Part shown: piece by piece, positions 24,035-32,351 of the stretch
Position numbering within the stretch: position 1 is the first letter of the stretch
Layout of the letters: the number at the start of each line of letters is the position of its first letter
From: Planctomycetota bacterium
Lineage (GTDB): Bacteria; Planctomycetota; Phycisphaerae; Phycisphaerales; Phycisphaeraceae
Direction: 5' to 3'
DNA length: 43,695 nucleotides
Assembly: GCA_024279865.1 (NCBI GenBank)
Contig: JAJRRC010000019.1
Location: 1-43,695 of the forward strand
Notes under the pieces: model-generated
Seen by the model: only the letters and a program-made list of their open reading frames with translations
What the model was told of the DNA's origin: nothing
The model's database searches: none
Program-made: the position numbers and the translations under genes

Positions 24035-27000
24035 TCAGGGGTTTTCGTACCACCGTACATGGAAGGTAATGTTTTGGGTGTCGGTGGTACTTCGCGGGGT
24101 GTTGCCGTCGAACACATCTTGTACTTGGAAGGCATTGAGGGCTCGGTCGTATATGGCCACGCGTTTGAGTTCGCCAAGCCAGGGTCGGCTATCATCGGCT
24201 TCATTGCCTAGGAACATTTTGTAGCTGTCGTCCCAACTGCTCAGGACACCGTCGCGTGCTTCGGTGATTTCCAGTGTGCCGTTGCGGTACATTTTGACAT
24301 TGTCGCCGTCCCATGTGATGACGATGTGTTGCTGGGTCGTGGTCAGAACACTGGCCGAGTCGATATCGGGTGTGCCGTTGTTGCCGGTGGTGGAGGTTCG
24401 TTGTCGCCAGACATATTGATCGGTATCCTGTCCGAAGGTGAAGTTTCGATTGCTGGTATTTTCGGAGAACGAGACCAGTCGTGCCGGGCCATTCTGGGTG
24501 AGGTTGTCGGGGGTGAAGATAATTTCAAAGGTCAGTTCATCAGTGGCTTCCAAGGCATCGGAGATTTTGGAGGCATCGGTATCCGAGGCCGCCTTGGTAG
24601 CCGCATTGAAGGTGATGCCGCCACTGGGTGCCCATGTGACGTTGGCGGTGTTGTCCACGGTGAGGTCCAGTGCGGTTCCAAACCCACTGGTATCCTTGAC
24701 GAGATAGCCTGAGGAACTACTGGCGCCGGGAGCTTGATCGCTGTAAAGGTTAGTTGCCTGGGTCGCATCGAGCGGTTGGTCATAGATACGGTACTCATCA
24801 AGGAGTCCCTGGAAATAATCAGATAGCGGGGTGACGACGCCGTTGCCACTTCTTTTGGTGGTGGCCCCAATGGCGATGGGTTCATAGTTTCCGATGCCGC
24901 CGGAGTTGGTTCCCATGCCGCCGGTGTAGCTGTCTGTATCGGCGAGGGTTCCGTTGATATAGAGCTTCATGCCACTGTATCCCCAGGAGAATATCACATG
25001 GTTCCATGTGCCTGCTGAAACAGTGCCTGATTGCAGGAGATAGCTGGCACTGGTGCTTTGAAGTCGGACTTCGACTTTACTGGCAGTGATCCAGATATCC
25101 AGATGTCCGCCTGTGTCGTAGCCGGAGGAATCTTTGGAGAAGAGGCTCTGATTGGTCGAGACGCTGTCTGCATTGAACCAGAACGAAACGGCACCACTGT
25201 TAAGCAGGTAAGTATCGTTGTGTGGGATTTTCAGGTAATCGTTGCTGCCGTCGAATTGGACAGCTGTATCGGTGTGGCCGGGTTGTTCGCCGAGTGGGGT
25301 GTTGTGATAGGTTCCATCGTTGGAAAGCTGGTCGGTGGCAATGAGCGTTCCGCCACCTCCGCCGCCACCGGTTTGCGCCAGATCGATATGTATTTGAGCA
25401 TTATCTTTTAATTCGATTTTATCTAGCGACATGGCGGTTCCGTAGAACTGGGCATTGTCTTCGATCTTGAATTTATCTTCGGCATAGACAATGCCGCACA
25501 TGATGGCTGAATCTTCAAGCTTCAATTCTCCATCATCTATCAGGTAGACATACAATCGCCCCGCACCCTGCGTGTCTGGGTTGAGTTTGCCTGTTCCCTC
25601 GACTTCAAGTTTGTCCTTGACATAAAGGGTCAGGCTCGATCCATCTGGGATAATCAGTTGGCCTGCGTCTTTTATTTCGAACTTTTCATCACAAAGGACG
25701 GTAATATCACCATTGATGGTGACGATGGCTGTCCCTTTGATGTGCAGTTTTTCGTAACGTTTGTCACTACTCCATGTTTCACTGGAAGTGATATCAACAT
25801 GACCTTGACTGGAGGGAAGGCCGCCTGGCGCTGAGACATCCGAGGGGATGTCAATTTCGGAGCTTAGTGCGGCCTTGGTTCCTGTCACGGAGCTTGCCCC
25901 AGTGAGTTTGATAACGGATGAAGGGTTGCCCCCCACGCCGCAGTATGCATTGCCCTTGATGTGGCTGTGGCTTTCGAGTTTGATTTTATGGTTGGAAGTG
26001 GAATTGGTGGACACTTCAGCCTGGCTGGAGATATTTCCTCCGCCGTAGGGTCCAGTCTGTGAATTGTAGCTATCAATAAAAGAGTTTTTTTTGAGTTTGA
26101 TTTCATTGCCAGCGGAGATGCCAAATCCGCTTCCACTTCCGCTATTGATGGCTTCGTCGAGTTTCCAGTGTCCGACGAGTTGGGGTGTGGGCAGGGGGAC
26201 TTCTTCCATTTTGTATTCGAGGATCAGTTGGGGGTCGTTATTTCCATCGTCTTCTTCTGTTGTTCCTGTATAGCCAGAGGGGTCTGGATTGATTCCGATG
26301 TCATGATGAAGCTGGGCATCATCTTTGACTTTGATTTTTTCCCCTAGAAAAGTGCCATAAAACTGGGCATCATTTTCCAGTTTCGAGGAGCCGGTTGGCG
26401 CGATGACCCTGGCGTAAACTTGTGAGGTATCCTCCGCTTCAAACTTGTCACCGGATAAGATGTAAAAGGTTGCCAGTGCGGGGTTGGCGGTGTTGATATT
26501 CAAGCGGGCATTGTCTTTGAGTTTGACTGGATGGTCTCCCCCCTTGGCCCAGATGGTGACGGAGGAGTTTGCGAGGATGCGTAACTCGCTGTTGTCTTTC
26601 ATTTCGAATTCGTCTTCGCAGAGAATTCGGACATGGCCACTGATATGAACAATGGCATCGTTTTTGATTTCCATTTCATCACAATGAATATCGCCTGTGA
26701 GGGTGGTGGTTCCGCTGTTGTAGGTCAGTTCGCCTTGATTGGCAGGCATGCCTGTCGGTTCGGTGACGGTGGGGATGTCAATGGCTTGGGTCAGTGTGGA
26801 CCGGGTGCCAGTGAGCGTGGCATCAGAGCTGACGGAGATGATGGTGTTGGGGTCTCCTCCGGGCCCCCCATAGGCGCTGCCGTGTAGTTTTGAATCGTCT
26901 TTAATTTCGATGTCGCCTGATCCGGTGGAGTTCGTTGAGATGATCGCTTCGGGTCCGACATTGGCTCCGCCGTAGGCACCGAGGGTCGAGTTGAAGCTGT

Positions 27001-28147
27001 CAATGATGCCGTCGTCTTCTAATTCCACGCTTTCAGTGACGGCCAGTCCTAAATTGCTGTTGGTGATGATCGGTGAATCACCGCTCCAGATCAAAGCTCG
27101 CTCCAGAAGCGTTTTGCCCTCGGCAGTCAGACTGTCAGGGCTGAAACTCGAGCTGCCCCAAGGCAAGACTACCCGTCGGGCCGGTGTATTCACGCCTGTG
27201 TTCAGCGTTTGTCCCGCGTTCATCACGCCCAGGGCAATGCTGTTGTTGGACGCATGATGGGCCAAGGCGGTCATGTCACCGGGGACCACGCCAAGTGAGC
27301 TAAGTGACTGGTCCGAGCTGGTGATGCTCAATAGACCTGCGTCAAATGTGGAGGTGATGTAATGGGTGTTGTCTTGAATATCAATTTGTGATTGCGTGTT
27401 GGTTTGCACCGATTGGGCGAGTCCCATATTGGTCACCACGCTGCTGATCTGTTCGGTTACCACGCCGATGGGGGCGCTGAGAAGGTTTCCGCCCAGCGTG
27501 CTGTCTGTGGCGTTTTGGCTGACATAAACCACGTCCGCATTGGCGTAGGCTGTGGATAATGCGCTCTGTGAAGAACTGTCGTCAATTAATGTGACGGTCA
27601 TGTTCCAGCTTTGGAGCAGGGTTTGCCTGGCCAGGTCATCTGCTGCAAGGCTTGCGGGGTTGGGGACGACCATCAACACCCGCGTCGGGGGCGTGGTCGA
27701 GGTGGGAGTGGGGGTGATTTCTGATTTGACGGTATGGGTGACGCCGTTGAAATAGCCTGTGGCTGTAATGACGATGTTGTCGGTGAGGCTGTTTGCCAGA
27801 TCGCCATCACCAGTGATTTGCCCAGTATTGTCGATGGTTCCGTCATTCACGGTGACGTTGAAGGTTCCATTGTTGAGGCTTTGATTGGAGACCCAGATGC
27901 CGTCGGTATAGGTGGTTCGCCAGTCGGCATTGTTGCGGATGTGGTCGATGGTGATGTTCATGGCGGATTCGGCGATGCCTCGTGCGCTGGCTTGGCGGCT
28001 GACATTTTCAGAGATACTGCTGGTGGTGGATTGGGTGTTTAAAAAAGTTAATCCCAGTACGGTTGCCATGGCGAGCGTGATCAGGACCAAGACCATGGCG
28101 ATACCACGAGGCTGATGGAGGGGGAGAGTTTTAGTTATTTTTTTCAT
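24035..28147 (-). CDS. Giant GspK/PilX-like pseudopilin with solenoid and LamG domains
   Basis: 1370 residues. A prepilin-type N-terminus: basic leader, cleavage expected after Gly15 (HQPRG|IAMVLVLITLAM), hydrophobic helix 16-36, and no Glu at +5, as in K-type pseudopilins. Then a pilin-like globular part (about 50-150), a flavodoxin-like ThuA-type domain (about 155-355; VLMVVPNPASL, ADVVYVSQ, TPARRVVLPWG), a beta-solenoid-like domain (about 372-618), a second homologous one (about 683-925), a LamG fold (completed at 932-1140) and a second LamG (about 1165-1355). The LamG opening LVGHWKLDEA lies at 658-667, before the second solenoid, and the rest of that fold after it. Both solenoids have IDS(F/Y)NS, YGG.N, AY.G.GG and DNAQFYGT. 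Last gene of a pseudopilin unit, six bases after gspJ-like. Probably an extracellular tip adhesin. Confidence 0.82.
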   Translation of the reverse strand: MKKITKTLPLHQPRGIAMVLVLITLAMATVLGLTFLNTQSTTSSISENVSRQASARGIAESAMNITIDHIRNNADWRTTYTDGIWVSNQSLNNGTFNVTVNDGTIDNTGQITGDGDLANSLTDNIVITATGYFNGVTHTVKSEITPTPTSTTPPTRVLMVVPNPASLAADDLARQTLLQSWNMTVTLIDDSSSQSALSTAYANADVVYVSQNATDSTLGGNLLSAPIGVVTEQISSVVTNMGLAQSVQTNTQSQIDIQDNTHYITSTFDAGLLSITSSDQSLSSLGVVPGDMTALAHHASNNSIALGVMNAGQTLNTGVNTPARRVVLPWGSSSFSPDSLTAEGKTLLERALIWSGDSPIITNSNLGLAVTESVELEDDGIIDSFNSTLGAYGGANVGPEAIISTNSTGSGDIEIKDDSKLHGSAYGGPGGDPNTIISVSSDATLTGTRSTLTQAIDIPTVTEPTGMPANQGELTYNSGTTTLTGDIHCDEMEIKNDAIVHISGHVRILCEDEFEMKDNSELRILANSSVTIWAKGGDHPVKLKDNARLNINTANPALATFYILSGDKFEAEDTSQVYARVIAPTGSSKLENDAQFYGTFLGEKIKVKDDAQLHHDIGINPDPSGYTGTTEEDDGNNDPQLILEYKMEEVPLPTPQLVGHWKLDEAINSGSGSGFGISAGNEIKLKKNSFIDSYNSQTGPYGGGNISSQAEVSTNSTSNHKIKLESHSHIKGNAYCGVGGNPSSVIKLTGASSVTGTKAALSSEIDIPSDVSAPGGLPSSQGHVDITSSETWSSDKRYEKLHIKGTAIVTINGDITVLCDEKFEIKDAGQLIIPDGSSLTLYVKDKLEVEGTGKLNPDTQGAGRLYVYLIDDGELKLEDSAIMCGIVYAEDKFKIEDNAQFYGTAMSLDKIELKDNAQIHIDLAQTGGGGGGGTLIATDQLSNDGTYHNTPLGEQPGHTDTAVQFDGSNDYLKIPHNDTYLLNSGAVSFWFNADSVSTNQSLFSKDSSGYDTGGHLDIWITASKVEVRLQSTSASYLLQSGTVSAGTWNHVIFSWGYSGMKLYINGTLADTDSYTGGMGTNSGGIGNYEPIAIGATTKRSGNGVVTPLSDYFQGLLDEYRIYDQPLDATQATNLYSDQAPGASSSSGYLVKDTSGFGTALDLTVDNTANVTWAPSGGITFNAATKAASDTDASKISDALEATDELTFEIIFTPDNLTQNGPARLVSFSENTSNRNFTFGQDTDQYVWRQRTSTTGNNGTPDIDSASVLTTTQQHIVITWDGDNVKMYRNGTLEITEARDGVLSSWDDSYKMFLGNEADDSRPWLGELKRVAIYDRALNAFQVQDVFDGNTPRSTTDTQNITFHVRWYENP

Positions 28148-28153
28148 ATTTTA

Positions 28154-28771
28154 TTACTCGCTTCGCAAGGCCGCAGTTCCGATGGCTGTATCTGAGACGA
28201 GGCCGAGGTCGAAAGTCACCTGATAACCAATCATGACAGCTTGCTGATCTGTGGTGTTGTCTAGGCTCGTCACCCAGCCATTGACTTGGGTTGCCCATAT
28301 TTCGACAGGAAAATAGCTCTGGGTTTTGAGTGCGGTGGTGGCGGTATCAAAATTAGAGGTCAGAGCATAGCTGATATTGGCGGTGTCGATGGCGTTTTGA
28401 GACATACTGTCCCAGTTGGCTTTATAGGAGACGATTTGTAGGGTGTTGGCGTTGTATTCGATGCGTCGGATTTCGCCGACATTGGGCAAGTCATCTTCAT
28501 TTTCATCGTGGGTCCAGAGGACCAAATAGCGGGTTCCTTCTTCGAGGATCATTTTTGAGCCTCGGATCGCAGCATTGAGCCTTGCAGCGACGGCTCTTTG
28601 TTTGACTACAAGTATGCGTAGATCGCGTGTACTACTGGTTCCATACGCGACGGCCGTCATCATGCCACTGATCGCCAACGCAATCATACTCATCCCCGCA
28701 ATAGCCATGAGCAGCTCCACCATGGTGAAGCCTGACGATTGACGATGATGTTGAACGGTGCGTGGTGTCAT
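28154..28771 (-). CDS. GspJ/PilW-like minor pseudopilin
   Basis: 205 residues. Prepilin peptidase site SSG|FTMVELLMA with Gly14, Phe15 and Glu at +5 (Glu19), then a hydrophobic helix up to about 45. The globular part (AVAARLNAAIRGSKMILEEG, YLVLWTHDENEDDLPN, IRRIEYN) fits the J/PilW type, in which the pilin measures 180-230 residues. It lies 12 bp after the gspI-like gene and six bases before the gspK-like gene, so translation is probably coupled. It should join the I, J, K tip complex of a pseudopilus. Confidence 0.8.
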   Translation of the reverse strand: MTPRTVQHHRQSSGFTMVELLMAIAGMSMIALAISGMMTAVAYGTSSTRDLRILVVKQRAVAARLNAAIRGSKMILEEGTRYLVLWTHDENEDDLPNVGEIRRIEYNANTLQIVSYKANWDSMSQNAIDTANISYALTSNFDTATTALKTQSYFPVEIWATQVNGWVTSLDNTTDQQAVMIGYQVTFDLGLVSDTAIGTAALRSE

Positions 28772-28783
28772 GATCTGGAAACT

Positions 28784-29296
28784 TTAAGAAGAGGCTGGAA
28801 TGAATCGTGAAATTTGCCATTGGCGAGCCTTGGCATCCGTCGCGGTCACAGTAACGGTGATGCCTGTGATGGTGGTATTCAATGCGGTGATGGCAACAGA
28901 AGTGTAGACAGCCGTGATGTTGAGCGTGAATTTCTGGTAGGAGGCTGGATACGCATTGCCCGCGACATCACTGAGGGTATCGGGGGTGGTTTTTAACCCA
29001 TCGAGTGTAAAGTTGTGATAGTCGTCGATGTTGTCATAGGCACTTCGCGTGTTTTCTCCGGAGTCTGGCCCGGTCGTGGTGGTTCCCTGTGGGTCGAGAT
29101 AGGGCTTGGAGGTTGCCTCTTCAAGAAACGCCTCGATTAACGAGGTCGCCCGCTGATTGTGCAACGCTTCATAAGTCTGATTCTGTGCGACGGAAACAGC
29201 TTGGACCACCGCCAAAACAGCAAAGGAGAGAATACTCGATGCAATAAGCACTTCGAGCATGGTAAAACCGCCTGGTTGTCGAGAGGACTGTTGCAT
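28784..29296 (-). CDS. GspI/PilV-like minor pseudopilin
   Basis: 170 residues. Prepilin site PGG|FTMLEVLIA (Gly10, Phe11, Glu15) and a hydrophobic helix up to about 38, with the line AVVQAVSVAQNQTYEALHNQ typical of I/PilV types. The remaining 120 residues are Thr-rich beta structure ending ARQWQISRFIPASS. First gene of the minus-strand unit I-J-K, divergent from the gspH-like gene across 256 bp. The AAAGGA at 29315-29320 is rather far from the ATG. Confidence 0.8.
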   Translation of the reverse strand: MQQSSRQPGGFTMLEVLIASSILSFAVLAVVQAVSVAQNQTYEALHNQRATSLIEAFLEEATSKPYLDPQGTTTTGPDSGENTRSAYDNIDDYHNFTLDGLKTTPDTLSDVAGNAYPASYQKFTLNITAVYTSVAITALNTTITGITVTVTATDAKARQWQISRFIPASS

Positions 29297-29552: not shown

Positions 29553-30098
29553 ATGGGATGGGATATGAATCACCGTTATTCAAAACATGCAAGGCAAAGG
29601 CGGGCTTTTACTTTTGTCGAAATGATTATTGTGGTCTCTGTCATCGGAATCGCTACCGCGCTGGCCTTGCCCATGCTAGGCACCACCAGTGCCACCAAGC
29701 TCATTGCCGCGGCAGACCAATTGTCAGCGGATATTTCCGTGACTCAAATGGAATCCATCAGCCATACCGATGACCTGCGGTACATGGTGTTTGATAGCGC
29801 CAATGAGGCCTATTACATCGCTGCGAATTCCGATCAAAATACGCCGATCACCAATGCTGTGGGAAACAAACCCTACAAAGTTGTTTTTGGTAAAAGTAGT
29901 GCCTTGTCCTTGGCGGGTGTGGGGATCAAGTCCTATTCCCTAGGCGGCGATGATCGTGTCCGTTTCGGTCTTTATGGCGAACTAGACCAAGCAACCCCCG
30001 CAACGATCACGCTTGAAATCGACGGCCTGGAACTCACCCTCACCATCGACCCAGTCATTGCTGAGGTTGCCATCGGCAATATTGTCACCACGCCCTGA
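29553..30098 (+). CDS. GspH/FimT-like minor pseudopilin
   Basis: 181 residues (177 if the ATG at 29565 is used). The prepilin segment is RQRRA|FTFVEMIIVVSVIG: the residue before the cleavage point is Ala18 instead of the near-universal Gly, while Phe19 and Glu23 (+5) are normal. The body (ATKLIAAADQLSADISVTQM, ESISHTDDLRYMVFD, RFGLYGELD) has the FimT/GspH helix and strand order. It is transcribed away from the I-J-K unit. I see no secretion ATPase, platform or peptidase gene nearby, so the assembly machine must be encoded elsewhere. Confidence 0.78.
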   Translation: MGWDMNHRYSKHARQRRAFTFVEMIIVVSVIGIATALALPMLGTTSATKLIAAADQLSADISVTQMESISHTDDLRYMVFDSANEAYYIAANSDQNTPITNAVGNKPYKVVFGKSSALSLAGVGIKSYSLGGDDRVRFGLYGELDQATPATITLEIDGLELTLTIDPVIAEVAIGNIVTTP

Positions 30099-30995: not shown

Positions 30996-31241
30996 GGAAA
31001 TCTCCTGGTGGAATGAAAAATAAACGGATTCTAAATGAAGCAAGCCTGCTCAGGCCCGCTTGGTCAATGATAATTTATTTCCCGTGTGCTGTACAGTTTT
31101 TTTGAACGCGGTGTCTGCAAGCAATGAAGAGTCATGACCTTTTTTTAAAGCGAATGGTATAGAGACAAATGGCTCATATTTGGGGCGAGAAATTGAACTG
31201 AATAATTGTTTTTGCATGGATGTTGCATTAATATAAAATCA

Positions 31242-32351
31242 ATGGTGGGAAATTTTATTCAAATTGATGCAAATAATGACCTGCCGATTGTTCAGCAAAT
31301 CCAGGCCAATCTGAAGCAGCAAATTCTGAATCACGAATTGCCTTCTGGAAGTCGTTTGCCCAGCATGCGACAAATCAGCGAACAACTGGGTTGTAGTCTC
31401 GGCATCGTGAAGCAAGCAGTCAACACGCTGACGGCAGAGGGATACCTTCGGTCGAGTCCCAGGCAAGGGGTGTATGTCGCAGAGCGAACGTCAGCCATTC
31501 GTGACATCGTCATGATCATGCCCAGTCTGGAACTGGAAAACATGCACCAGTTGGCGCGTGGCGCCCGTGAAGGGCTACTTTCTGGGCCTTATCGCTTGGT
31601 GATTCAGGCAGCCAACAATGACTACGACGAACAACTGCATTTATTGGAATACTTAGACCCAGACCTCGTGGCGGGGGTGCTGATCTGCCCGCCTCCGATC
31701 CAAGAGGGTTTTACCTCGCTTGAAAAATTGCAAGCCAAAGGATTACCCTGCATCCAGTTAGGAGCCTACATCGACGGCTTAAACATGGGGGCCGTGGTGT
31801 TTGATGCAGTGGAATTGGCCTATCAAGGGCTCTCGCATCTTTTGGAAATGGGACATCGAAACATCGGTGTGGTCGGCATCCCCGATAACACCGGGACTGG
31901 AAGGGATCGGCGGACAGGCTTGGCGATGGCGTTGGAACCTTACGGCATGAAGCCTGAGCAATTGTCGTATGTCCGTGCCAAAGAATGGAATTTAAGTGCA
32001 GACAAGCCTTGGCTTCAAGGTCAACATGTCGGAACGCAGTTGCTGACGGAACATCCAGACACGACGGCTGTTTTGGGTATGAATGAGCATATGACACTTG
32101 GCGTGGCGCGGGCGGCGCGTCAAATGGGACGAAAAATTGGTAAAGATTTGTCTTTGGTGAGCTTGGGCGATTTACTTATTTTTGAATTGCTCGATACGGA
32201 AATCACCGCAGTGGAAAAACCTTTGCCTCGAATTGCCGCTCGTGCAGCATTACGCCTTGTCGAATTAATTGAAGGCAGGAGAACCGATATTGGAATGATT
32301 CAATTGTCGCCTCGCTTAATTTCACGTCAAAGCGTGGTTCAGTTTACCTAG
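31242..32351 (+). CDS. GntR-type regulator with sugar-binding sensor domain
   Basis: 369 residues. The N-terminal winged helix (about 8-75; LPIVQQIQANLKQQILN, LPSGSRLPSMRQISEQLGCS, YLRSSPRQGVYV) is GntR type. The C-terminal 270 residues (IRDIVMIMPSLELENMHQLA, VAGVLICPPPIQEG, HRNIGVVGIPDNTGTGRDR, TAVLGMNEHMTLGVARAARQ, DLSLVSLGDLL) form a LacI/PBP1-like sugar-sensor fold, as in AraR. I chose the ATG at 31242 since the frame upstream has no signal; GTG at 31245 is also possible. Two direct TTGCAT repeats spaced by five bases lie 16-35 bp upstream and could bind a regulator. Confidence 0.85.
   Translation: MVGNFIQIDANNDLPIVQQIQANLKQQILNHELPSGSRLPSMRQISEQLGCSLGIVKQAVNTLTAEGYLRSSPRQGVYVAERTSAIRDIVMIMPSLELENMHQLARGAREGLLSGPYRLVIQAANNDYDEQLHLLEYLDPDLVAGVLICPPPIQEGFTSLEKLQAKGLPCIQLGAYIDGLNMGAVVFDAVELAYQGLSHLLEMGHRNIGVVGIPDNTGTGRDRRTGLAMALEPYGMKPEQLSYVRAKEWNLSADKPWLQGQHVGTQLLTEHPDTTAVLGMNEHMTLGVARAARQMGRKIGKDLSLVSLGDLLIFELLDTEITAVEKPLPRIAARAALRLVELIEGRRTDIGMIQLSPRLISRQSVVQFT

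Follow-up and report, generated by a model that had tools for sequence, protein, structure and literature searches.

How domains can be carried inside one another in a putative filament-tip protein is the question raised by a gene in a 43,695-nucleotide stretch of a Planctomycetota bacterium genome (contig JAJRRC010000019.1; the whole stretch is hereafter the window). The gene, an uninterrupted 1370-codon open reading frame (ORF) on the minus strand (28147-24035) and the single copy in this genome, encodes a K-type modular minor pilin. A Pfam scan of the 1370-aa protein identified DUF7305 twice (D1 and D2 in order, the only two DUF7305 domains found in the genome) and Laminin_G_3 twice, the best Laminin_G_3 stretch being placed at residues 966-1130 and the second counted without a place; no tandem repeats were found within the gene. 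A preliminary description had read the protein as a pseudopilin whose LamG domain is split by a copy of its own solenoid-like domain. Our results support the splitting of one LamG domain (LamG1) by D2, suggest that LamG1 lies in turn within a second LamG domain (LamG2), and indicate that the loop behind the first strand of LamG1 holds different domains in different relatives. Most likely, the protein serves as a tip adhesin or receptor of modular build, with LamG domains as its stalk and a loop into which cargo plugs; its ligand binding is putative.

LVGHWKLDEA, in strand 1 of LamG1, lies at residues 657-666 (the motif reported preliminarily is present, and the numbers then given, 658-667, are one too high), and the LamG continuation starts at about residue 934 behind a Gly-rich joint, with ATDQLSNDGTYHN at residues 937-949. 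As had been described, D2 is bordered by Gly/Ser-rich stretches, GSGSGFG (670-676) and GGGGGGG (927-933). In a splice test, each of 1133 14-residue stretches of the protein was placed before residues 930-1140 and scored against a profile built from 11 uninterrupted LamG domains of other proteins. The stretches with LVGHWKLD ranked first of the 1133 by score gain (9.8 bits, against 4.1 bits for the best non-overlapping stretch). Across the 31 proteins with a complete unit (see below), the corresponding stretch came first in 23 and within the top 1% in 28; kept in these counts are L046, L085 and L088, which are insert-free members of the LamG1 training set and provide no real test, as well as L033_2088, L035, L036, L038 and L075, each with two to four better competitors, L075 also containing a training domain. 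An AlphaFold model of residues 637-1370, built from a 19-sequence alignment (mean predicted local distance difference test score (pLDDT) 81.9, predicted template modelling score (pTM) 0.51), was separated by structure alignment into three domains, LamG1, LamG2 and the domain in the loop (the cargo). LamG1 strand 1 lies at model residues 21-25, and the predicted LamG1 aligned with 5hon_A over model residues 17-500 (Z 22.5, root-mean-square deviation (rmsd) 2.4, 192 of 206 residues aligned); LamG-type chains span model residues 14-19 to 500-502, across the insert. The aligned chain stretches each represent a single domain of ~200 residues, so that ranges this wide count the early strand together with the late part, the joining of the two being read from the lengths and from the first and last aligned residues. 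Furthermore, domain maps and junctions of three homologues with an empty loop, L046 (apparently from the same contig as L083), L085 and L088, revealed a contiguous LamG1. These data support by computation that LamG1 is split by D2 between strand 1 and the remainder, as the preliminary description had proposed, naming structure prediction and insert-free orthologues as ways to check it; the splitting is more than chance.

Going beyond that description, LamG1 itself seems to be inserted within LamG2, with LILEYKMEE in LamG2 strand 1 and a remainder at about residues 1141-1350. A second strand motif, Y-x-F/L/M, was found by pattern in all 31 proteins, ~15-16 residues ahead of the Trp/Phe of the LamG1 strand. 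Y9, L21, W25 and L27 of the module are invariant across 15 aligned sequences, and the 19-sequence alignment retains Y9 and L27 without exception and W25 almost without exception. LamG2 strand 1 lies at residues 5-10 of the model (mean pLDDT 90 for model residues 1-10). The predicted LamG2 aligned with 8byp_N (812-1014) over model residues 2-713 (Z 20.4, 195 residues aligned), and jelly-roll stretches of several chains align from model residues 1-4 to 713-714. Moreover, five relatives (three of them near copies) carry uninterrupted LamG2-type domains that start with ILHYDF or TLHYDF, the rest following directly. The splice test for LamG2 failed with an untrimmed profile, four of the five training domains having a long internal insertion, and was repeated with profile columns limited to those present in L088. 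The true strand then ranked first in 15 of the 31 proteins and within the top 1% in 26; these counts retain L031_2523, L071_3955, L081 and L088, in which a LamG2 training domain of their own probably explains the 27-36 better competitors, and L050, a plain failure with 211 of 817 competitors better. Taken together, the AlphaFold model, the structure alignments and the splice scores support by computation a nested A1-B1-C-B2-A2 arrangement, less firmly at the level of LamG2 than at that of LamG1.

Two side observations concern these LamG domains. The NCBIfam model 'TafC family fimbrial protein' matched LamG1 (residues 956-1143; 24719-25282, minus strand) with E 2.8e-15, far below its cut-off. 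The uninterrupted LamG2-type domain contains a long low-complexity insertion, Asp-rich or His/Gly/Arg-rich, in L031:2523-6956 (residues ~485-600), L071, L073 and L081.

Without nesting, the short strands would be linkers or sheet decoration, and D2 and the LamG domains would follow one another like beads on a string. Several points weigh in that direction and against the nested anatomy. The strands are only ~10 residues long, and confidence is low where the model places the LamG1 strand (pLDDT averaging 56 over model residues 21-30 and below 50 for 28-38). Apart from the failure of L050, the window protein itself gives a modest LamG2 splice signal, its rank among 1130 stretches shifting with the tail cut (for the three cuts, 2, 1 and 8 when the five-sequence profile is used, and 3, 2 and beyond twelfth place when a one-sequence profile is used). 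However, beads on a string fit poorly with the contiguous LamG1 of the homologues, with the uninterrupted LamG2-type domains of the five relatives, in which the same Y-x-F strand stands directly ahead of the rest, with the invariant residues of both strands, and with structure alignments that use both parts of each domain; we consider such an arrangement very improbable. The preliminary description had also regarded the insert as copied from residues 372-618 of its own chain. Its claim that the two domains, each of ~250 residues, are homologous holds: DUF7305 (PF23981) scored 85.2 bits over two stretches (cut-off 27; 53.8 and 50 bits for the two domains alone), and D1 and D2 share 87 identities over 253 columns (34%), scoring 425, whereas 300 shuffles reached at most 65. 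This homology, and the lack of any further DUF7305 domain among those found in the genome, would suit an in-gene duplication that copied D1 into LamG1. In a tree of 38 DUF7305 domains, however, 27 inserted and 11 non-inserted domains part on one branch (support 90/76, not strong), D1 grouping with the non-inserted and D2 with the inserted domains; D2 falls outside a 99/97 clade of the non-inserted domains plus three inserted ones. Forcing D1 and D2 together made the tree 45 log units worse (p-AU 0.0006), which speaks against a recent copying of D1 into D2; the two belong to different DUF7305 lineages. In addition, of the 25 proteins in which a DUF7305 is inserted, 24 lack a second such domain in our domain maps, and at the D1 position relatives carry LamG, a weakly DUF1349-like domain or another domain. 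Copying within this gene is hardly credible as the source of D2.

With regard to fold, the predicted D2 aligned with the ice-binding protein 4nu2 (Z 20.0, rmsd 2.6, 197 residues aligned, model residues 33-288), and ice-binding proteins such as 4nu2 were the best solenoid matches of the modelled DUF7305 among the matches listed. By sequence, the DUF7305 profile found no convincing relative among solved structures (best E 1.3), and no ice-binding family was among the Pfam matches of the 11 of the 38 DUF7305 domains that were scanned at E 0.1. Weak matches to Bactofilin (Pfam) were seen in four of the 11 scanned domains (best E 8.5e-4; window 25364-27052, minus strand).

A scan of genome contigs with the single protein (P0001) returned no relatives, and a scan of named genomes with a closer alignment (A2) gave 74 loci. 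Of 61 genomes searched, this one included, 48 match some part of the protein. Carriers of the whole module, nearly all metagenome-assembled genomes, are titled Phycisphaeraceae, Phycisphaerae, Phycisphaerales, Planctomycetaceae or Planctomycetota bacterium, and the whole module is also present in one complete genome, 'Planctomycetes bacterium syqfu'. At the order level, 63 of 301 genomes match the module profile at E 1e-30, and 30 of the 301, in families f1 and f6, have a match running through both LamG parts as read from the table; in a sample of the phylum, 6 of 392 genomes match at E 1e-100, again from f1 and f6. The census of 31 proteins with the complete unit leaves out contigs fetched twice (L072, L077, L079, L080 and L083), the near copy L073 and the partial sequences L039, L040, L057, L067, L082 and L086. 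The loop holds DUF7305 in 25 of the 31, another domain in three and nothing in three (L046, L085 and L088). The three other cargoes are a repeat domain of the YWTD type in L044, with Pfam matches to DUF5050 (E 6e-15) and Ldl_recept_b (E 1.2e-13), DUF7483 in L056 (E 2.4e-27), and ~180 residues with no Pfam match in L084; the partial L086 has yet another loop insert with no Pfam match. Occupation of one loop by other domains was likewise not part of the preliminary description. Our results support by computation a fixed plug-in site in the loop that follows LamG1 strand 1, a site that is empty or filled with one of several unrelated domains by lineage.

On the best host tree, built from the LamG1-LamG2 parts with the insert columns removed, the cargo states need at least six changes, and L044, L046 and L084 form a clade (support 100/100) with three different cargo states. 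Two points limit the weight of this count: shuffled labels average 5.9 changes, so that the observed six is no fewer, and the host tree is weak outside its tips, its bootstrap not having settled. The firm part is therefore the variation inside the L044/L046/L084 clade. L083 and L084 share six segments of 83-92% identity, one of the two carrying the ~180-residue insert in the loop, and a DNA alignment of the pair at the insert revealed neither a clean junction nor a repeat. Between L044 and L083, identity is 84% for the pilin and 70-71% for the LamG parts, but drops to 36% for the ThuA-like domain and to 25% for the domain that follows, where one protein has DUF7305 and the other has LamG. It is possible, and we suggest it tentatively, that the loop serves as a dedicated, lineage-wide cargo port, in which recombination swaps, removes and replaces whole domains against a constant background of pilin and doubly nested LamG stalk, tip specificity being diversified by the third-level domain.

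Some loci have two nested-LamG K-type genes in tandem (L031:2523-10891, L033:2088-10024, L071:53-8463 and L073:4312-12677), and in several of these pairs the domains ahead of the module differ, as if the tip protein had been duplicated and then diverged. In L062:2129-4633 (minus strand), DUF7305 seems to be split by ~150 residues that partly resemble the insert of the partial L086; the DUF7305 solenoid may itself be a host for insertions.

At the N-terminus, the leader/pilin junction reads QPRG followed by IAMVLVLITLAMATVLGLTFL, with Gly-1 in 18 of 19 aligned sequences. As the preliminary description had noted for a K-type start, Glu is missing from mature position 5, which is Leu in 18 rows of the alignment, the window protein among them, and Ala in one; the neighbouring H-, I- and J-type proteins all have Glu there. 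An AlphaFold model of residues 9-368 (pLDDT 84.4, pTM 0.64) placed the pilin module in a helix (model residues 7-64) and four strands (75-136). The protein thus shows the class III leader with a terminal Gly, the hydrophobic N-terminal helix and the small beta sheet expected of a minor pilin of the type IV pilin superfamily. NCBIfam GspK matched residues 14-102 (E 2.8e-9, 36.9 bits against a cut-off of 130) over profile positions 2-96 of 307, and PilX_N matched with E 0.03, below its cut-off. Since the GspK match is below the cut-off and confined to these positions, we did not file the protein as GspK. An N-terminal profile found no convincing relative among solved structures (best E 0.74). 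Residues 150-366 align best with ThuA-like/class I amidotransferase folds (1t0b_G: Z 16.3, rmsd 3.8, 203 residues aligned) and have no Pfam match. A pilin module thus stands beside modules not specific to pilus biology, as in other modular pilins. The I- and J-type genes and the divergent H-type gene stand upstream; their type-specific matches are all below the cut-offs, the letter J resting on position. Of 27 further loci that contain the nested unit, 20 have relatives of all three next to the gene. Seven loci lack the full set: one, L056, lacks H and has its I and J genes beyond the far end of the K gene, and six have none of the neighbours. Among the six, L045 and L071 end too close to tell, whereas the others do not. 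Outside the window the genome has four secretin matches and 13 T2SSE-family matches, 11 of them over the cut-off, and NCBIfam scores of the type II secretion system (T2SS) and type IV pilus (T4P) families are close and do not separate for the one secretin and four ATPases examined. The cluster itself comprises only the four minor pilins, which would suit either a T2SS or a T4P filament. The coordinates of the gene, its parts and its neighbours are given in the table.

Table. Features of the K-type pilin gene and of the adjacent minor pilin genes, in window coordinates.
Feature	Residues	Position	Strand	Basis
K-type modular minor pilin gene, 1370 aa, stop included		24035..28147	-	ORF
Leader and pilin module, ...QPRG/IAMVL, Glu absent at +5, a long helix plus four strands	1-145	27713..28147	-	GspK and PilX_N matches below cut-off; model
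ThuA-like/class I amidotransferase-like fold	150-366	27050..27700	-	Model and structure alignment; no Pfam match
D1, first DUF7305 solenoid, as far as seen not inserted elsewhere	367-622	26282..27049	-	Pfam; fold inferred from D2
LamG2 strand 1, contains LILEYKMEE (641-649)	640-650	26198..26230	-	Model, structure alignment, splice scores
LamG1 strand 1, PQLVGHWKLDEA	655-666	26150..26185	-	Model, structure alignment, splice scores; contiguous in homologues
D2, second DUF7305 solenoid, behind LamG1 strand 1	669-926	25370..26143	-	Pfam; model
LamG1 remainder	934-1138	24734..25348	-	Laminin_G_3 966-1130; model
LamG2 remainder	1141-1350	24098..24727	-	Model and structure alignment
J-type minor pilin gene, GFTMVE, Glu5		28154..28771	-	N_methyl just below cut-off; weak gspI/gspJ; gene order in relatives
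I-type minor pilin gene, GFTMLE, Glu5		28784..29296	-	N_methyl; gspI E 3.9e-6, below cut-off; gene order in relatives
H-type minor pilin gene, divergent, AFTFVE, Glu5		29553..30098	+	N_methyl; gspH E 2.8e-6 and ComGD E 1.2e-6, both below cut-off; gene order in relatives

Two observations on gene neighbourhoods are added here. L036:2635-11303 has two I-J-K sets in a row, one K being short with a non-inserted DUF7305 and the other having the nested LamG unit. Near the pilin cluster of the window, 31206-32351 (plus strand) encodes a regulator in which a GntR-type DNA-binding domain is joined to a LacI-type periplasmic-binding domain.

The domain order, the LamG1 nesting, the cargo variation and the HIJK gene context are supported by computation, and the protein, a K-type modular minor pilin, most likely caps a T4P or a T2SS pseudopilus together with H, I and J and bears a large display head with a doubly nested LamG unit and a plug-in loop. 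In known systems, the K subunit caps HIJK and lacks Glu5 (PMC9934059), and a tip location of the window protein is suggested, following PMC9934059 and PMC6561018, by its K type, its missing Glu5 and its size. Together with its H, I and J neighbours the K-type pilin would cap a type IV filament, and its head would comprise the ThuA-like domain, one DUF7305 solenoid and, in order, LamG2 strand 1, LamG1 strand 1, the cargo, the LamG1 remainder and the LamG2 remainder. Each insertion being hung from both ends, LamG2, LamG1 and the cargo would be stacked and the cargo held away from the pilin. The preliminary order of a solenoid stalk with a lectin head is thus probably reversed for D2, the nesting placing the LamG pair between pilin and cargo. 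A change of cargo would alter what the tip binds (a polysaccharide, a surface or, as in ComZ, DNA) and leave the assembly module untouched; binding of DNA or polysaccharide, suggested by the 4NU2-like modelled fold, is a reasonable guess and no more. Some of our observations tell against this picture: the GspK match is limited to the start of that model and below the cut-off, seven of the 27 other loci lack the full HIJ set, the surface exposure and the ligand of the protein are purely putative, and with a pTM of 0.51 the geometry of the stack and the orientation of the domains are not fixed by the model.

The same anatomy could instead belong to a factor at the tip of a T2SS pseudopilus that recognizes secreted substrates in the periplasm and is no surface adhesin. 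The GspK-type N-terminus and the close T2SS and T4P scores of the secretin and ATPases are compatible with such a role, which we regard as rather unlikely, because lineage-specific exchange of domains would be more in keeping with an outward ligand than with a step of secretion that is conserved, and because the lectin module of the Streptococcus sanguinis minor pilin PilC binds glycans (PMC9934059). A role as a DNA receptor of a competence pilus, like ComZ of Thermus thermophilus, is quite improbable. ComZ is described as a DNA-binding GspK-like pilin, argued to sit at the tip, and its solenoid is reported to be closest to ice-binding 4nu2 (PMC6561018), as is the modelled DUF7305 among the matches listed. 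However, the loop of some homologues contains no solenoid, the DUF7305 profile matched no solved solenoid by sequence, and a shared fold may mean nothing for function. We retain the modular tip adhesin or receptor as the preferred explanation.

Modular pilins with lectin modules are already known (PMC8179133, PMC9934059). S. sanguinis PilB and PilC, like the window protein, join a pilin module to grafted binding modules, PF13385 being among the commonest, and tip display has been proposed for them (PMC8179133, PMC9934059). In contrast to PilB and PilC, whose modules are described as fused behind the pilin, the 1370-aa window protein nests two LamG domains and has an exchangeable domain in the inner loop. 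ComZ resembles it as a GspK-like pilin with an inserted solenoid nearest to 4NU2, and differs, compared by description, in that its solenoid is inserted in the pilin sheet, whereas the window protein has one copy free and one in LamG (PMC6561018). ComZ was not among the matches listed (the best 50) in either of two structure searches, which excludes nothing, nor among the matches of the DUF7305 or N-terminal profile searches. GspK, the T2SS tip pseudopilin, shares with the window protein the N-terminal segment, the missing Glu5 and a gene position after I- and J-type genes, whereas the rest of the GspK model is unmatched and the head is unrelated. A1-B1-C-B2-A2 insertions are formally known from a survey of ECOD domains, reaching six levels in RNA polymerase (PMC13114784); in contrast to that survey, host and first insert have the same fold here and the innermost domain is exchanged between close relatives. 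A search of the open-licence literature, without most subscription-journal papers, returned no paper on nested LamG domains in pilins, on a pseudopilin with LamG, on Phycisphaer- minor pilins or pili, on DUF7305 by name or on TafC.

Modular pilins are known to graft modules in series, and the family of the window protein seems to graft by nesting, twice, with one loop open for exchange. The relatives with and without cargo offer naturally occurring host domains on which folding and binding could be studied, and the family connects DUF7305 with the solenoid fold of ComZ, a tip pilin. A nested architecture with a swappable innermost domain suggests that one fixed loop is used to vary the display at the filament tip, and the protein is a candidate means of surface attachment or sensing in these planctomycetes.

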